Below are positions 13,078 through 22,404 of a stretch of DNA of 64,000 nt, one piece after another. The stretch lies in assembly GCA_009695205.1 (NCBI GenBank), contig SIBK01000001.1:62001-126000 (forward strand), in the 5' to 3' direction. This DNA comes from Pedosphaera sp. Its GTDB lineage: Bacteria; Verrucomicrobiota; Verrucomicrobiia; Limisphaerales; UBA9464. The translations under genes were made by a program, and so were the position numbers. The first letter of the stretch is position 1. The number at the start of each line of letters is the position of its first letter. Below the pieces are notes generated by a model that made no database searches, had not been told where the DNA came from, and saw only the letters and a program-made list of their open reading frames with translations.

Positions 13078-16000
13078 TCATGGAATGATCCGGACGCGGT
13101 AGAATTGAATGACGTCGGCCGATTGTGGGGGAAATTGAACTGTGGTGGTGGTAGCGGTCACCTGGGCCGCAATTGTCCATCCGGTTGGTTCCAAGTTTCC
13201 ACGGGATTCAAGCAGATAAATATGTCCCACGACTGCCGGGGATGCTTCGACTACGAGCAATCGGGTGAGTTGGGCGAGGGTTGCTTGGAGGATCGGAGAC
13301 GGCGCGGGTGCCGGCGTGGTGGAGGTATTCAGCGCACCGGGAGTTGGCGCAAGTTCCGAATTCACGAAAGGTCCCGTGCCATCCGGAACCCGGGCAAGCG
13401 AGTGATCGGTGGTCTGGGAGTTCCAAGCGACCGCATCGATCACTGAACCGGAACCGTCGGAAAAATAGACAGCGCCAAATTCAGATTCGAATTGAAGTCG
13501 ACTGCCATCCGCCTGCTTGAGCATCGCCTGGACACTACGTCCCGAGATGGCGGTCAATGGCGGTAGGGGAAATTGTCGGAGGACGAGTGGGGCGGCGGAC
13601 AGAGAGAAATTGTTGAGCAGCACTGGCAGATCGTTTTGATTGAAGAGTTCGACGAATTCACCAACCGGGGCACCATCCTTCTTGGTGTACAGTTCGTTGA
13701 TGACGATCCGCCTTGGATTTCCAAGAGCCATTCGGTTGTTGGCTGCACCGAAGGTCGGTTGGCCCAATCCCCAGGATCCGTTGTCCTGGCGCACCAGAGA
13801 AACTCCGGGAATTTGAGGTCCAAACACAATGCGATCCAGCACCGCTCCGCCCCGTGGAGTGCTGTCATATAGCAGGACCGACTCGCCGTCGACATCCAGC
13901 CCGAAACCCGTGTGGAATCCCAGCGGGGTCGCCAGCTTGTCGCAGAACACCGTGAGATAGCCGCCGGCGGGCAGCACCGTTCCGGCTGGGAAGACAAACT
14001 TGCGGGGCTTGGCGGGATCGTCGGTGAGACTGGTGCCCTCCAATGCGAACGGCAGGTTTCCGGGATTATAAAGTTCGATGAGATCCGGGCGGGTGACACC
14101 GAAAGGTGCGTCGTTCGTGTTGGATGCGAGAATTTCGTTGATCCGAACGTCGCCGAAATCGGCGGCAATTTGCCAGGTGGAGACGGTTCCCGGCTCGGCT
14201 TGCCAATCGCCCGCGGAGTTCTGTCCGAAGACCTGAAGGGAATGACTCCCGGTGGACAGCCCCGTGAGCAAAAGCGGCTCGTCCATGAGTCGGTCGGCGC
14301 TGAGAACTCCGCCGTCAATACGGAACCGGTATCGGCTTAGGCCGGGGCCGTACACACGACCGAGAATCGAGTGACGGGTGGTGGGGGCCTCAGGAATGCC
14401 TGTGACGATCGCGCCTGCGGGAACAAATGCTCCGAGATCAATCCCGCCGGGAGCCAGTCCGGCGGCAGAAGAACCAGTCTGTAGGTGGTAATCTTCGGGA
14501 GGAGAAATAAAGGCGGGATCTGCTGAAAAATCACCCACACCCGGCCACACAACCGTCTGGTCAAACAGAGAATTTTCGACCTTCAATTGAATCGTACCGT
14601 TCTCCAAGAGACGGGGGTCGAGATGCGCGATCACCGCGTTGTACTGAGACCATATATTATTCTGAAGAATGGCGCCGGCGGGCGGTGCTTCCCCTGGGCG
14701 GAGCGGTTCGGATACGGCCAGGGAGCCGTGTCTTCCGTGGACAAACGTATTATTGATTGCGGTGACGAATGAGCCCTCCTTGGCGATGAAATCGTAGTCA
14801 TTGTCCACGAAGAGATTTCGTACGGCAACCCAGTGGCCATTTCGCGTGACGCCCCCGTAGGAGTGGTTCCCTCCGGAAATTGCGCCCGCTTCGCTGCCGT
14901 CGGAATTGGCTTTGTTGCAGTTCATGAAGAGGTTCCCCTCGATATGGGCATCCGTGCCGTCGAGATCTAGGATGTCATCACTGCCACCGAGGAAAACGTT
15001 GTCGATGAAGCGGGGAATAGGGCCTGGCCGGATGCCGCCGCTGAAGTCGATGATGTCAGCATAGCCCACCGTGCTTCCAAAGGTGTTGCCTTCAAAAAGC
15101 ACCTGCCCTCCCGGCGGCCATGTCACATTTTCGCCGCGAACCGGTTCGATATACGCGACGGCCGGGAACGTGCAGTGGCGGACCACGATCGAGCTGTCCG
15201 TAATCCAAATGATCTGTGTTCCAATTTCAGTAATTTTCTCAAAGTTTACGTCTTCCAGTAGGAGAAACGAATTTGTGATCCCTATCACTCCGGTGCGGTT
15301 TTCTCCGAAATCCGCGTATCGAATTCGAGTTTCAGTCGTGGTGTGATTCAGTTTAATGCCGGCCCAGTTGCCTGTCCCCAGGCGGTCAAAACGGATCCGG
15401 TTGGAGGCGGTTCCCTCCGCAATCAGCTGTCCCTTGACCTCCAGACCCGCTTTATTGTTGAACGAGACGCTCGTGCCGGGGGCAATTGTCAATACTCCAC
15501 CAACCGGGATTACGGTCGGCCCTGTCACCTGTATAGCGCCGTCGGATGGCTGCCAATGAGTGCTGCCACCGAGCGTGCCTTCAACCGGTCGGATGGCAGT
15601 CGAAGCGCGGGCCATGCGCGCGGATCCTCGAGAGACGACTTGTCCACCCACATCGAGCGCCTCGATTGCGAGCGTATTGATTCCGGGAAGGAGGGGGACG
15701 GTTGCCTCCCATTTTCCTTCGAATCCATTCCAATCGGCTGGAATGCCGTTGACCCGAATGGCGCGCGCAAACTGGGGATTTGCGAGACCTTCGACCGTGA
15801 CGGTATCCGCCGTGGTGGAACCGGTGCTCCCACCGGTGAGCGACGGAGTGGTGACACTGACCTTCTGAAGCAATGCCAGTTGCGCCGTCACGAAATCAAA
15901 GCGCTTTTGGGCAGAAACCTTCATCCGGTTGACCACCTCGGCCGGGACATGAGGACGAAGGAGTTGATCCAGCACGGCGGCCACGCGGTCCGGGCGAAAT

Positions 16001-17913
16001 ACCGACGACATCAGGCGATGCAATTCGAGGTGGTACTGTTCTCCGATGCCAGGGGATCGCAGGAGTTTTCCAGGAGTCCCCTGTTTATTCAATCGGTTGT
16101 AAGCGGCTCGGTATAGAGAACTGCCAGTGCCATCGATATCGGTTCCAAGAACTGAATCGAGATCATATGGAATCAACTGGAAGCGGGGATTATTGGGGCC
16201 GTGATAGACGTAGAATTCACCGGCCTCGCCCGAGCCCAGTGATGTTTCCGTGTCCCCGAGCAGTGTGTTGACCGCAAAATAGCGCATCCACCCGGGGATG
16301 TCGGTGATTTTGCCGACTTCGGAGGTGTAATTCGTCGCGGGAGTAAAGTTTAGCACCCGAAGCAGTTCAAACAGATCCGACCAGTCATTTTCAGTCGTAT
16401 TGCTCGCCTTGGTCACCCATCCGATCGTGAGGAATTCGTTCACATTGGTGCCCAACCATTCCAGCCCCATCCCACCGCAGTCGTATAGATTACCTCCTGG
16501 ATTGTCTGGGAACTCCGCCCGAGTATAGTCGGAGTCCAGGACCTCGTTGTGGGCCAGGAGGCCCGCAACCGGGCTTTCATTTCCAGTAGGAGCCACATTG
16601 TTTTCGCGCACCTCCACGAGCCGGGAACGCGCAGCCGCCAATCCCGCCAAGCGTGCAAGAGCCGACCCGGCAACCTGCGAGTGCGGGCGGACGCCGTTGA
16701 GGTTGATTTCGATAACACCCGCCCAGGAATGATCGTCTGGAAACAGAACTCGCCGTGACTTCGGCGCGAAAAGTCGTGAGGTCGACCCGCGAAGTCTCAG
16801 TCCGGTTGTATAGCGAATATGGTATGAATTATCCTCGTAGGAGACAAACGTGGTGTTCATTTTTGCATTGCTGCTCGCAGACCATATTTGTCCATCGATC
16901 TGAGCCAGATCAGCCCGCTCGGCCGCCATCATTATAAGGCGGAATCGCGGTAGAATTCCAACGGTAGAATCATCCACTTGGTAGAGCGCATTGGCCAGTT
17001 GAGCGTTGGCGGGTTGCGTTGGCGCCGGCCACGAGCGCGCGCGGCCGCCGATGTCGACCGCTCGGATGTAGAATTCCACGATGGCTCCGTTGGTTTGAGG
17101 AGGAAGAACGGCCCGATATATTCCCCCGGAGAGTGAGCCATCGCCCGTCGCGGGGTCGATATCCATTGGCAGTGTCGTAAAGGTCGGGGCTCCGTCCAGT
17201 CGGTACGCGACCGATACGACCGATCCCGCGATCTCATCTGCGACGCGTGCGGTGATCGTGACCGGGTTAGAGGAGCTGGGAACCGGTGGCTGATGCTGAA
17301 CGTTACTGATATAAGGGGCGACTTCTGTGGCGGACACCCCATTGACGGAGCCGGGGGTGCCTCCGGCCGTGCTGCTGGTTCTCCAGTTCTGGCCGGAATT
17401 GCCATCCCGCCTGGGACTAATTCGTTCAAGGGTGTAACCGCCACCGTCGTGCAGCGCAAACCATTCCCATCCCTGAAATTCGTGGTCCAATGGCCCACGA
17501 CGTCGTTCAGCCCAGTCGCCCTGCGTGTGAAATTCAAGAGAATCCGAGACGGCCCCCTTGGAATCGACCAGAGTAAGCGTTTCACCGTGCTGCCCTAGCG
17601 ACCCAATCCAGTCACCCACCACGTTTCCGACAGTGGGATGAAGTTTGGAGAAGATAGATTTGTTGGCAGCGACGAGGAGGAATTGTCCAGGTGCGACGAA
17701 TACATTCGGGAAATCGTAGGTCACTCCTCGACTTATTTTCCATCCCGCTAAATTCACGGTTTTTGTTCCCGTGTTATGAAGTTCGAGGAATTGCTCCCCA
17801 CGTATCCCGGACGGAGAGTGATAATAAATTTCGCTGATCACGACATCACCCGCCAGGGTCGAGGCGGCGGTGGCAACGGTGGCGGCAAGAGCCAGCCAGA
17901 GAAAAAGGTGCAT
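13078..17913 (-). CDS. Giant secreted lamin-tail / CotH-like / beta-helix protein
   Basis: 1611 residues with an N-terminal signal peptide (LFLWLALAATVATAASTLAG). A first lamin-tail domain lies at about 23-190 (VVISEIYYHSPSGIRGEQFL, LELHNTG). A CotH-kinase-like domain spans about 320-680 and ends in FQLIPYDLDSVLGTD, the acidic motif where metal binds in this family. A right-handed beta-helix runs from about 800 to 1080 (DADILDLDGT-like repeats, NNTFVHGRHG). Two more lamin-tail domains follow near 1245 and 1400 (VRINEILASNTND, IVINELYTKKDGAPVGEF). The C-terminus YRVRIIP resembles the end of the next protein upstream, YQMRLLP. A surface or secreted role is likely; the substrate is unknown. It lies 33 bases behind the related gene at 17947-22404. 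Confidence 0.85.
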   Translation of the reverse strand: MHLFLWLALAATVATAASTLAGDVVISEIYYHSPSGIRGEQFLELHNTGTKTVNLAGWKISRGVTYDFPNVFVAPGQFLLVAANKSIFSKLHPTVGNVVGDWIGSLGQHGETLTLVDSKGAVSDSLEFHTQGDWAERRRGPLDHEFQGWEWFALHDGGGYTLERISPRRDGNSGQNWRTSSTAGGTPGSVNGVSATEVAPYISNVQHQPPVPSSSNPVTITARVADEIAGSVVSVAYRLDGAPTFTTLPMDIDPATGDGSLSGGIYRAVLPPQTNGAIVEFYIRAVDIGGRARSWPAPTQPANAQLANALYQVDDSTVGILPRFRLIMMAAERADLAQIDGQIWSASSNAKMNTTFVSYEDNSYHIRYTTGLRLRGSTSRLFAPKSRRVLFPDDHSWAGVIEINLNGVRPHSQVAGSALARLAGLAAARSRLVEVRENNVAPTGNESPVAGLLAHNEVLDSDYTRAEFPDNPGGNLYDCGGMGLEWLGTNVNEFLTIGWVTKASNTTENDWSDLFELLRVLNFTPATNYTSEVGKITDIPGWMRYFAVNTLLGDTETSLGSGEAGEFYVYHGPNNPRFQLIPYDLDSVLGTDIDGTGSSLYRAAYNRLNKQGTPGKLLRSPGIGEQYHLELHRLMSSVFRPDRVAAVLDQLLRPHVPAEVVNRMKVSAQKRFDFVTAQLALLQKVSVTTPSLTGGSTGSTTADTVTVEGLANPQFARAIRVNGIPADWNGFEGKWEATVPLLPGINTLAIEALDVGGQVVSRGSARMARASTAIRPVEGTLGGSTHWQPSDGAIQVTGPTVIPVGGVLTIAPGTSVSFNNKAGLEVKGQLIAEGTASNRIRFDRLGTGNWAGIKLNHTTTETRIRYADFGENRTGVIGITNSFLLLEDVNFEKITEIGTQIIWITDSSIVVRHCTFPAVAYIEPVRGENVTWPPGGQVLFEGNTFGSTVGYADIIDFSGGIRPGPIPRFIDNVFLGGSDDILDLDGTDAHIEGNLFMNCNKANSDGSEAGAISGGNHSYGGVTRNGHWVAVRNLFVDNDYDFIAKEGSFVTAINNTFVHGRHGSLAVSEPLRPGEAPPAGAILQNNIWSQYNAVIAHLDPRLLENGTIQLKVENSLFDQTVVWPGVGDFSADPAFISPPEDYHLQTGSSAAGLAPGGIDLGAFVPAGAIVTGIPEAPTTRHSILGRVYGPGLSRYRFRIDGGVLSADRLMDEPLLLTGLSTGSHSLQVFGQNSAGDWQAEPGTVSTWQIAADFGDVRINEILASNTNDAPFGVTRPDLIELYNPGNLPFALEGTSLTDDPAKPRKFVFPAGTVLPAGGYLTVFCDKLATPLGFHTGFGLDVDGESVLLYDSTPRGGAVLDRIVFGPQIPGVSLVRQDNGSWGLGQPTFGAANNRMALGNPRRIVINELYTKKDGAPVGEFVELFNQNDLPVLLNNFSLSAAPLVLRQFPLPPLTAISGRSVQAMLKQADGSRLQFESEFGAVYFSDGSGSVIDAVAWNSQTTDHSLARVPDGTGPFVNSELAPTPGALNTSTTPAPAPSPILQATLAQLTRLLVVEASPAVVGHIYLLESRGNLEPTGWTIAAQVTATTTTVQFPPQSADVIQFYRVRIIP

Positions 17914-17946: not shown

Positions 17947-20900
17947 CTAAGGAAGGAGCCGCATCTGATAAAACTGTGCCGGGGCGCCTACGGAATTGTG
18001 CTTTAGTTCCGCGGCGCCAGACGCATCCGAAACGCCCGATTTCACCTGTAGCCATTGTCTGAGATCGGTGGATGCAAAGAGGCCGACAGCCCGATTTGAA
18101 GGGCCGTCGAAGCGAATTGTCACCGTGCCAGCGGCGAGGTTGAAATGGCCGAAGCTGGTTTTAGTGGGCACGAAGGTGGAGCCGGCCGTAACGAGGATGT
18201 TGTCGACTCGCAATTCGGGTCTCCCTCCCGAGGCGGAGTTAGGGAGCGCATAGTATTTCCAACGGAGCTGGATGACCGGTTGATTCTCTGCAGCGGCCGG
18301 CAGCGGGATCGGTCCAAAAGGTTGAGAATGGCCCGGTGTGCTGCTGGCAATGTATTCGACGGGCAACCCGTTCTGACCCAACACCGAATTGAACGGTGTG
18401 TTGGTGCCGATCCGCCATTGCAGACGGATTGCGTACGGACGCGAGTTCGTAACCGCGGTGCCGCCTATCCAGGAAACCTGTATGTTCGTTGCCTGATCCG
18501 TTCGCAGGGCAAGGAGGGCGCTTCCGGCGTACCCTTCATCCCGGGATTGCAGATCCGAGGTGTTGAGAAAAGCGAATCCGTCCGTGCCGAGTCCAAGGAT
18601 CCTGCTGCGATTTGTCAGGTCGTATCGATTCGTCCAAAATGTTTCCATGCTGGCGGCAATGTCGGGATCTTTCACGGAGGTCTGTAGGAACCGCATGGCG
18701 GCGGGATAAGAACCGGCGGGGGAATCAGGCGCCCAGGCTGTCAACGAATAGGGACCCGTAGCCAGGGTATGCGGATGAGGGACCACTGAGTTGAAATCGA
18801 AGCCGGGATCCACAGTGAATAGCGGCGTGATGAAGGTGTCGCGGTCCATTGCGAAGACGAGTGGGTTGTTGGTTTCGTTCCGGCCCTGCCATCCCGCAAA
18901 GCGATAGCCTGCGGCGGGCGTCGCCCGGGCTTTCACCGGGGATCTCAGGAAATAGAGGCCGGACCAAGGCAGGTTTGTGGGCTGGAAGTGAAGCGTGCTG
19001 AAATGCAGAGAACTGAGGCCGGCACCGGGTGTCGCTCCCAGCGTGACTCGAACCGACCCGTCGATTGGAAGGCGCGCGGAAATCAGCGACCGGAGTACCG
19101 CCGGCCGGTTGTTGAGGAAACTGCGAACAATGTTTACATTCGTCGTCCAGTTATTGAATGACCCAATGGTATCATAGCCAATGAAGGGACCGGCCCAGCG
19201 TTGAATGTGAGCGGGCATGCCTGGGGCGAGGCGGGCCCAGAATTCCTCAAGTCTTGGCAAGGTGTGTTCCGGAGCGAAGGTCGTGTTGAGGAGGTCGGCG
19301 AGACGATTCACAAACAATGTACGCCACGTGTCGTTCTTGACCAAACCACGCGGAAAGGCCACGGACCGTGAGGATTGGCCCGCGACGGGGGCGTCCCCAA
19401 ACACAAAGAGAAACCGATCTTGCTGGCCTGGATTATAGAGCTCGGCGGGAGTGAAGCCCGCGTCCAGATCAATCATCGCCCATCGCCATTTTCCGCCAGG
19501 CCGGTTGTCGCGCCAGGATAAAACATTATGCCCGGGCCAGTCGCCATTGTCGGCGAACAATTCCGTGCAGAGCCAATTGTTGTAATTCTCGATGTCCATG
19601 TGGCTGGAGGCCGCAGCATATAGGGACTCATTTTGAGGGGAACCTCCGAGAGTGTCGAACATGGCGTCGACCTGATCCACGAGGGTATTGTAGTCGCCGC
19701 GGCCGCCTCCGATCACTTCAACTTCATCCTTGAGAAGACTGATATCGGATGCCGGCACGCCCGAATGTCGGGCAATATGAGAAACATCATCGCGTTCGCG
19801 GATTTCATGAATTCCCCAATACTGGCCGTTGATATAGACATGAGCTGGGCGATATCCCTGGGTTTCGAGTCCGACTTCAGCGCCCAAGGATTGAGCGAGT
19901 CCGTCGCGAAGCATCGCTTCAGGCCAGTCGTTGCCGCTGTTTCGGAGGATTAGAGCGTCGAATTGATCAACCGACGAGCCTGGGAAGAGGGGATACTTCA
20001 AGCTTTGGCTACCATAACGGTCCCGTAAATGGAGGCGGAGGGATTTTTGGGGGAGGTAGCGCGTATACCCTCCGTGAATTCGCAATCCGCATTCAAAATC
20101 GAAGCCCGCCACGCCGTTGGTTTCAAAAAATTCCACGTGGACGGGACGTTCCCAGTCCTGGTTCCAGTTCTCGGATCCGAAGCCGGGCTGTGCCGGAGAA
20201 GGTGAGGGTCCCGCCACATACATTCCCCACGTGGGGTCGAACAGATTGGAACTGGTGGTGGCGAGCGAAACCACAGGCAGTCCCGGGGGAGTGTTCAATA
20301 AGTACGTGGCGGTGGCAGCCCGGCTGGCGACTCGGTTTGGGAAAACGGCCCGCGCGCGGACCACCGTGCTGTTAACAAACGTCAACGCCTGGCTAAGGGT
20401 CCGGGTGGAGGAATTACCCGGTCCGGGTAGTGAACCGTCCGTGGTATATTCAATCGTGCTGCCGGGCGGAAGGTTGGTGGTGATGAAGCCGACCTTGACC
20501 TGCCCCGCATACATCCCGGGAGCCGGAGTGAAGATGGGTTTTGGAAGAACGCCTGTCGTGACTCCTCCGGAATTTGCGCCATTCGGGCTCGGAGTGGTAT
20601 ACCATTGCCACGAAGGGCTGCCCAGAGCGCGCCCAAACGAAACATCCGACCGAGTTTCTATAGGCGGGGTCGAGTCGGCAATCGAGCCGTTAGGCCTCGT
20701 CAGTTGCAGGATGTCACCGTTGCCTTTCAGCTTGAAGTTCGTGTGAAGATTTTGAGAGGGGAGGTGCCACTTCCTGCTGAGATAGGTCTCCATCTGCACC
20801 CGTTCCACGTCGGTCAGTTGGCGGTTAAATGCAAGGATTTCATTGATCTCCCCGTCCCAGAAGCGACCGAGAAGTAACCCAGGGCGGTCCGCTGCCAAAT

Positions 20901-22404
20901 TGTCGGCACTGGTGTCGCGGGTCGTCTTTACGCTGAGCAGAACGCGTCCCGGTGGAAACGGAGTGTTGTAGGGGACAACGGATTGTCCGTTGACCCAGAC
21001 GGAATGTCTAGCGTCATAGAAAATATAGTGATTGGGACCGCGCACGAAGTCCCCTCCGACGCTGCCGCCCAGGATGGGGCGGTAGTTGTCACTTGCGGTT
21101 TCCGCCTCGCGCCCAACCCAGAATATTGTTCTGAGGTGGCTTAATTCCATTCCCATGGCGTCGTTAATTCCGTCGAATAGGATGCCGGTCTGGCCGGTGA
21201 GGGGATCCATGACCGGCACGGGCTGAAATTCAGCGATAGATTGGTAGGGGTTCGCGGCAGCTGCTGGAAGGGAATTGGGAGTTCCCCATTTCTGCTGCAG
21301 GTATTTTTCAATTCCGGCCACCTCGGAATCCGCCAGCTCACGATCGAAGCAGAGAATCTCCGCCATGTCGCCGTTCCATACTTGGTTAATATTGCCGCCT
21401 TTTACTATAAATCGTTCCGAACTGAGGTTGTTCGCCCGCATGTTAGCCGGCGCCACCAGTGACACGAGGTTCAAGCCGGAGTCCGCGCCTGCTGGGAACG
21501 GAGTGGTCAACGGTGGGACGCGCGCGCCGTTCAGACGCCACGCGCCATTGGTTCCACCCGGACTCGATCCCCGATAATTCCCAATCAGTTCACCCAGTTT
21601 GCCCCGTGCAAAATCATAGAACTCACTGTCACCCAGGAACGGACGAAGAACACCATCCCGTTGAGCCGCCTCCCTTCCTACGAAGAACATTGTGCGGATT
21701 GTCTCCATCCTCTGCTTGAACACGAGGTAGTCGTTCCTTCCATCAAAGCGGACCAGACCTCCCGTCCCCGTCGTGGCCGCCAGACGGAGCGGACGATTAT
21801 CGTTGGTCGACTGGGAGGCATCATTGCCGAGTCCGCTCTTGTCCTTCCATACCGAGACGGCGGACTGCACAAGTGTGAAACGGGCTAAGTCAGCGGCGTC
21901 GAGCCACAAGATTTTTCCTGAAACATTTTTTGGATCGAGTACCGTGATGTTGACATTGATCGTCTCCCGAGGAGTCTTGTCTTTCCACTCCGATAGCCGA
22001 CCATTTGTCAACCGAAGGGTGGAGGTTTCGGACGCATCAATCCACCAGTTCAATCCGAGCAGATTGGTCGGGCTAAACCCTGGGGGCGGAGGAGTCCCAT
22101 CGGGTGGCACTCGACGATCTTTGCCATCGATGAAGACGATCAAGCGCCCGCCGGGGGCTAAATCGACAGCGGGAAAGGTCCAGCGAAACGGATTTGCCGG
22201 ATCATCGCTCAGGCCATAACCGGTCAGGGTTGCGTTGGTTGAGCTCGGGTTGTGGAGCTCGACCCAACCACGATGGTCATTGTCTTCATCGGCGAGGACG
22301 GTGCGATCCTCCGGCAGAACTTCATCGATTCGGACTTCGGCTGCTGCAACACCTATAAAAAACAGAATAAGGGCTGGCAGAAAAGTTGTGAAAAGCAGCT
22401 TCAT
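17947..22404 (-). CDS. Giant secreted lamin-tail / nested LamG / chitobiase-C / CotH protein
   Basis: 1485 residues with a signal peptide (LFTTFLPALILFFIGVAAA). A lamin-tail domain starts at 24 (VRIDEVLPEDRTVLADEDND), is interrupted near residue 98, and resumes at about 553 (LHTNFKLKGNGDILQL). The interruption contains a LamG/concanavalin-like module (116-155 plus 384-550) that itself holds a second complete LamG (163-383). A CHB_HEX_C-like segment (STIEYTTDGSLPG) lies near 650. A CotH-kinase-like domain covers about 760-1100, with LRIHGGYTRYLPQKSLR, GIHEIRERDD and the acidic WAMIDLDAGF. It probably works outside the cell or on the surface. It forms a pair with the 13078-17913 gene. Confidence 0.88.
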   Translation of the reverse strand: MKLLFTTFLPALILFFIGVAAAEVRIDEVLPEDRTVLADEDNDHRGWVELHNPSSTNATLTGYGLSDDPANPFRWTFPAVDLAPGGRLIVFIDGKDRRVPPDGTPPPPGFSPTNLLGLNWWIDASETSTLRLTNGRLSEWKDKTPRETINVNITVLDPKNVSGKILWLDAADLARFTLVQSAVSVWKDKSGLGNDASQSTNDNRPLRLAATTGTGGLVRFDGRNDYLVFKQRMETIRTMFFVGREAAQRDGVLRPFLGDSEFYDFARGKLGELIGNYRGSSPGGTNGAWRLNGARVPPLTTPFPAGADSGLNLVSLVAPANMRANNLSSERFIVKGGNINQVWNGDMAEILCFDRELADSEVAGIEKYLQQKWGTPNSLPAAAANPYQSIAEFQPVPVMDPLTGQTGILFDGINDAMGMELSHLRTIFWVGREAETASDNYRPILGGSVGGDFVRGPNHYIFYDARHSVWVNGQSVVPYNTPFPPGRVLLSVKTTRDTSADNLAADRPGLLLGRFWDGEINEILAFNRQLTDVERVQMETYLSRKWHLPSQNLHTNFKLKGNGDILQLTRPNGSIADSTPPIETRSDVSFGRALGSPSWQWYTTPSPNGANSGGVTTGVLPKPIFTPAPGMYAGQVKVGFITTNLPPGSTIEYTTDGSLPGPGNSSTRTLSQALTFVNSTVVRARAVFPNRVASRAATATYLLNTPPGLPVVSLATTSSNLFDPTWGMYVAGPSPSPAQPGFGSENWNQDWERPVHVEFFETNGVAGFDFECGLRIHGGYTRYLPQKSLRLHLRDRYGSQSLKYPLFPGSSVDQFDALILRNSGNDWPEAMLRDGLAQSLGAEVGLETQGYRPAHVYINGQYWGIHEIRERDDVSHIARHSGVPASDISLLKDEVEVIGGGRGDYNTLVDQVDAMFDTLGGSPQNESLYAAASSHMDIENYNNWLCTELFADNGDWPGHNVLSWRDNRPGGKWRWAMIDLDAGFTPAELYNPGQQDRFLFVFGDAPVAGQSSRSVAFPRGLVKNDTWRTLFVNRLADLLNTTFAPEHTLPRLEEFWARLAPGMPAHIQRWAGPFIGYDTIGSFNNWTTNVNIVRSFLNNRPAVLRSLISARLPIDGSVRVTLGATPGAGLSSLHFSTLHFQPTNLPWSGLYFLRSPVKARATPAAGYRFAGWQGRNETNNPLVFAMDRDTFITPLFTVDPGFDFNSVVPHPHTLATGPYSLTAWAPDSPAGSYPAAMRFLQTSVKDPDIAASMETFWTNRYDLTNRSRILGLGTDGFAFLNTSDLQSRDEGYAGSALLALRTDQATNIQVSWIGGTAVTNSRPYAIRLQWRIGTNTPFNSVLGQNGLPVEYIASSTPGHSQPFGPIPLPAAAENQPVIQLRWKYYALPNSASGGRPELRVDNILVTAGSTFVPTKTSFGHFNLAAGTVTIRFDGPSNRAVGLFASTDLRQWLQVKSGVSDASGAAELKHNSVGAPAQFYQMRLLP

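Follow-up and report, generated by a model that had tools for sequence, protein, structure and literature searches.

The window analysed here is a stretch of 64,000 nucleotides from the genome of a lake bacterium, and the gene of interest is an open reading frame on the minus strand (17947–22404) whose product, 1485 residues long, is predicted from its sequence to be secreted. From the N to the C terminus, the protein comprises the first part of a lamin-tail domain (LTD), the first part of an outer LamG domain, a complete LamG, the remainder of the outer LamG, the remainder of the LTD, a CHB_HEX_C domain and a CotH domain. The features are as follows.

17947..22404, minus strand: gene for the 1485-residue putative secreted protein, with an LTD split by nested LamGs, a CHB_HEX_C/Fn3-associated domain and a CotH domain (open reading frame; Pfam CotH, LTD and CHB_HEX_C_1)
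22339..22404, minus strand: putative signal peptide, residues 1–22, MKLLFTTFLPALILFFIGVAAA (by eye from the sequence)
22105..22353, minus strand: LTD, N-terminal part, residues 18–100 (LTD HMM, model 5–87, 103 bits)
21973..22071, minus strand: outer LamG, N-terminal part (X1), residues 112–144, three predicted β-strands (LamG HMM, model 1–33; AF2 strands)
21283..21933, minus strand: inner complete LamG, residues 158–374 (LamG HMM, model 1–224, 128 bits)
20767..21252, minus strand: outer LamG, C-terminal part (Y1), residues 385–546 (LamG HMM, model 38–103 and 186–223)
20566..20760, minus strand: LTD, C-terminal part, residues 549–613 (LTD HMM, model 87–153, 34 bits)
20320..20526, minus strand: chitobiase/β-hexosaminidase C-terminal-like domain, residues 627–695 (Pfam PF13290, 25.8 bits, cut-off 22)
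19093..20085, minus strand: CotH kinase-like domain, residues 774–1104 (Pfam PF08757, E 5.1e-43; profile match to 5jd9)

The adjoining gene (13078–17913, minus strand) also encodes a secreted LTD–CotH protein, with three LTD matches, and in two relatives, one of the same genus (L092) and one of another genus (L093), the nested gene is likewise followed by a gene that opens with a similar LTD. The C-terminal tails of the two neighbors in the window are similar (FYQMRLLP in 17947–18082 and FYRVRIIP in 13078–13220, both minus strand), and F/Y-rich tails are alike at the ends of several relatives; these tails possibly constitute a shared C-terminal module. At least 16 places in genome G000 carry LTDs like that of the nested protein, mostly in open reading frames of 1400–1850 residues. 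In this large family of secreted LTD proteins within one genome, the window gene alone bears its type of LamG.

The division of the LTD is evident from profile matches. In the unjoined chain, the Pfam LTD model (PF00932) aligns to residues 21–108 at profile positions 5–74 of 109 with 32.1 bits, below its curated cut-off of 34.3 bits, and joining residues 17–98 to residues 550–625 raises the match to 47.3 bits over profile positions 4–104. The Pfam scan returns no match at all between residues 110 and 550, and the Pfam LamG models match neither the inner nor the outer LamG, including when the pieces are scanned separately. Two further HMMs were used. One was trained on 20 LTDs without interruption, taken from the window's genome and from relatives in the same order; the other was trained on 50 unrelated single LamGs, most of them viral-contig sequences, and excluded the window sequences. 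With the first, residues 18–100 correspond to model positions 5–87 (103 bits) and residues 549–613 to positions 87–153 (34 bits); the joined halves score 151 bits, with no model position missing or repeated. Positions 87–153 are absent before residue 110. The LTD does resume after the outer LamG, as claimed in the initial annotation, but it does so at about residue 549 and not 553.

The LamG model gives a parallel result one level further in. X1 (residues 112–144) matches model positions 1–33 with 24–32 bits, compared with a maximum of 8.1 bits in 2000 shuffles of the 40-residue segment around it. The inner LamG (residues 158–374) matches the complete model, positions 1–224, with 128 bits and is intact from its leader to its KWG.P end, in agreement with the proposal that a whole second LamG fills the gap in the first; residues 145–157 form the linker and this leader. 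Y1 continues the outer domain, with residues 385–445 at model positions 38–103 and residues 509–546 at 186–223, and the two outer halves, once joined, yield one match of 82 bits over positions 1–223. The outer LamG is interrupted, although near residue 145 rather than the 155 first suggested, and both host domains indeed read normally with their inserts removed. The protein therefore has the A1-B1-C-B2-A2 form of a nested insertion: the outer domains are split and become complete when the insert is taken out, the inner domain is whole and uninterrupted relatives exist. Of the 24 sequences in the inner LamG's alignment, 13 match PF13385 at E values up to 0.1 (the best being 5.9e-13); the tie of the inner LamG itself to the LamG family is therefore one of transitive homology only. 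The split LTD, which falls below the Pfam cut-off, and every LamG part of this protein escape annotation pipelines.

The strand order in a structure prediction is consistent with this division. AF2 was given residues 104–554 and an alignment of 54 sequences, and returned a model with mean pLDDT 78.6 and pTM 0.68; a run with only 4 sequences (pLDDT 35.7) was discarded as uninformative. In aligning sequences for AF2, single LamGs fell on the inner LamG and not on the outer halves. The predicted strands of X1 (118–123, 130–133 and 136–140, in a block with pLDDT of ~86–91) are spaced like strands one to three of the inner LamG, which they precede; Y1, which comes after the inner LamG, contributes just the later strands and the terminal helix. 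The LamG parts are predicted to adopt a ConA-like jelly-roll fold. Foldseek retrieves ConA-like lectin domains, including sialidase lectin domains, together with a phage tailspike and many phage LamG proteins, in alignments that do not tell which of the LamGs is covered.

The arrangement recurs in relatives. At least 11 genomes from three families of the order (f1, f15 and f2) carry the doubly nested form along its whole length, and further nested copies are cut off by contig ends. The full-length arrangement occurs in two congeners (75% identity), a different genus within the family (41%) and representatives of two further families; a contig scan with four nested sequences found three nested loci. 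An even sample of 388 genomes across the phylum gave a match to the whole length of the nested model in the window's own genome only. Because the same arrangement occurs in independent genomes of three families, it must be old, and an assembly chimera is ruled out. Two of the congeners with the nested protein (L091 and L092) are deposited as Akkermansia muciniphila metagenome-assembled genomes (MAGs), a label that looks doubtful; by contrast, the MAG of a further nested relative is recorded as uncultured Verrucomicrobia.

Relatives with one insertion and with none, which the initial annotation had proposed to look for, were both found. A single uninterrupted LamG lies between the same two LTD strands in L050, L052, L053, L073, L075–L081, L083–L085 and L087–L090, and uninterrupted LTDs are frequent (L051, L055 and L146–L148). 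Nine of the single-LamG relatives resemble the outer, not the inner, LamG of their nested cousins. In family f2, nested and single-LamG proteins occur together. Compared with the f2 nested proteins, the f2 single LamGs score ~92 with X1 versus ~65 with X2, and ~480 with Y1 versus ~238 with Y2. With its inner LamG left out, the outer LamG of nested protein L066 is 57% identical over 202 columns to the single LamG of L079, and the alignment runs without a gap across the junction (VARWQSKIGQP and ATQSNTAQQP on its two sides in L066, versus VARWQSATGITAAQSDTTRQP). In the LamG tree, the f2 outer and f2 single domains form one clade (98/100) and the f2 inner domains fall elsewhere.

A second, very different class of LamG occupies the same LTD site in other families (L050, L052, L053, L143, L152, L156, L157 and L159), and in the LamG tree L050 and L053 are set off by a branch of 2.25. 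This points to replacement or an independent insertion. Viral contigs (L166–L245) encode many phage LamGs that align with the full extent of the inner LamG at ~25–32% identity, hinting at exchange of LamGs between phage and cell-surface proteins.

Every domain part is maintained by purifying selection. Between congeners, dN/dS is 0.24–0.51 over X1 and ~0.09–0.25 over each of the other domain parts (both halves of the LTD, the inner LamG and Y1); the short linkers diverge faster than the domain parts. Since the ratio is well below 1 across the domains, a decayed gene is ruled out.

Complementary HMM matches, uninterrupted relatives and the AF2 strand order together uphold the original description of a LamG within a LamG within a lamin-tail domain, and confirm that the stacked insertion is real and inherited rather than an ordinary row of domains. 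The protein very probably reflects domain insertion at two levels, in which an LTD is interrupted by a LamG that is itself interrupted by a complete, homologous LamG. The outer LamG occupies a variable loop of the lamin-tail (Ig-like) domain, between the strands ending in ..VFIDGKDRR and beginning with LHTNFKL, and the inner, ConA-like LamG lies within the outer one, in the loop that follows strand three; both insertions are in frame and old. The N- and C-termini of a LamG would lie close together, so that a copy may be tolerated in an LTD loop and again in a LamG loop. Two successive in-frame insertions had been suggested rather than simple tandem duplication. The in-frame and non-tandem character of this proposal stands, and its presumed order of events, with the LTD interrupted first and the LamG second, gives the simplest history.

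In a tree of the CotH backbone, LamG-bearing proteins separate from most uninterrupted ones; in an enlarged tree, a four-member group lacking the nested protein's type of LamG falls inside the LamG-bearing clade. In the CotH tree, the window's family branches first and the nested proteins form a paraphyletic group. Monophyly tests on the LamG tree do not reject a single clade of all inner LamGs (p 0.378) or one that unites the outer LamGs and the f2 single LamGs (p 0.402); the f2 singles are the reason why a clade restricted to the outer LamGs is rejected (p 0.008). One possibility is that the f2 single-LamG proteins have lost their inner LamG, the nested form being ancestral to the LamG-bearing clade and pruned several times. 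The paraphyly of the nested proteins and the survival of both monophyly hypotheses favor such losses, as does the loop of the f2 singles (WQSATGVTAAQ), where the usual W..KSGNG.HASQ loop is longer by two residues. However, the deep branches of the LamG tree are long and weakly resolved, and a separate gain in each family could also account for the pattern; we consider the loss of the inner LamG in f2 to be evenly balanced, and lean only slightly toward a nested ancestor with repeated loss over multiple origins. A broader and rather doubtful suggestion is that LamGs repeatedly enter and leave the loops of LTDs and of homologous LamGs, with nesting depth varying among living lineages, perhaps as exchangeable binding heads fed by a pool of phage and cell-surface LamGs.

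Other routes to the nested topology can be weighed against two-level insertion. The inner and outer LamGs are homologous and have a common leader before the first strand (P..I.GL.LWLDA), as might be expected if nesting arose by partial internal duplications, of the N-terminal part once and the C-terminal part once, or by a recombination slip within a LamG. We regard this as unlikely, because the inner LamG is whole and its f2 representatives form a separate clade, because the two outer halves group with one and the same set of single-LamG relatives, and because one insertion is simpler than two matched partial duplications. The LTD might instead have received a ready-made LamG-in-LamG cassette in one step, with which the CotH tree, in allowing a nested ancestor of the clade, is compatible; yet single LamGs are frequent inside LTDs and no LamG-in-LamG was seen outside an LTD among the order and phylum matches inspected, making such a step improbable. 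It is scarcely credible that these are ordinary tandem LamGs behind a complete or degenerate LTD, with a short chance match mimicking a split. Tandem LamGs do occur commonly across the phylum (three in a row in G529 C133, for example) and X1 is short, but the complementary LTD and LamG matches and the score of X1 above its shuffles exclude a tandem, Y1 begins at model position 38 without the first three strands, LTD positions 87–153 return after Y1 and the single-LamG relatives are contiguous at the point where the outer LamG is split.

In the CotH domain, residues D955, N960, D979 and D981 lie at the active-site motifs, with D955 kept in 22 of 28 aligned sequences and D979 in all 28 (28/28). 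A sequence-only search of the PDB with this domain gave no match, but a profile search matched structure 5jd9 (E 2.4e-12) with the active-site motifs aligned. Bacillus CotH is inactivated by mutation of D228 or D251 (PMC7821199), and in our reading of the alignment these residues would correspond to D955 and to D979/D981, respectively. The LTD could hold the LamG stack, in which both domains are anchored at their two ends, as a compact, rigid, lectin-like head, which would bind a surface glycan or glycoprotein and deliver it to the kinase-like CotH domain. Such a kinase-like protein, secreted or at the surface, with an LTD-displayed head for glycans or glycoproteins, is a tentative proposal, somewhat short of probable.

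The components of this protein have known counterparts. Its LamGs have the fold and the motifs (LWLDA, W.DKSG, FDG, AEI..YNR.L and YL..KWG) of Laminin_G_3/ConA-like domains (PF13385), which occur in bacterial surface and phage proteins, but their divergence puts them beyond the reach of the Pfam models, and one of them is host to the other. The order of LTD, CHB_HEX_C and CotH is that of the secreted LTD–CotH proteins of the order, many of which are encoded per genome; unlike the nested protein, most of these have an LTD that is uninterrupted or contains one LamG. The likeness to the CotH spore-coat kinase (5jd9/5jda) consists of the profile match and the aligned active-site Asp motifs, whereas here the domain is part of a large secreted multidomain protein and kinase activity is predicted only.

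Nested insertion as such is already known. The ECOD catalogue of nested insertions includes a two-level case in ndhH and a six-level case in cyanobacterial RNA polymerase, and 65.8% of the catalogued insertions join different H-groups (PMC13114784). In the literature searched, we found no description of LTD/LamG/LamG self-nesting; such absence is weak evidence, and a homologous LamG-in-LamG-in-LTD with all three states living is, to that extent, apparently new. A domain inserted in its own homologue is easily mistaken for a tandem repeat. The ECOD A1-B1-C-B2-A2 architectures share the topology described here, in which one domain is both inserted module and host, but differ in that the inner and middle domains of this protein are homologous LamGs and that relatives with zero, one and two insertions are extant. 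Because the empty, single and double states are all found in living relatives, the stepwise origin or loss of nesting is testable.
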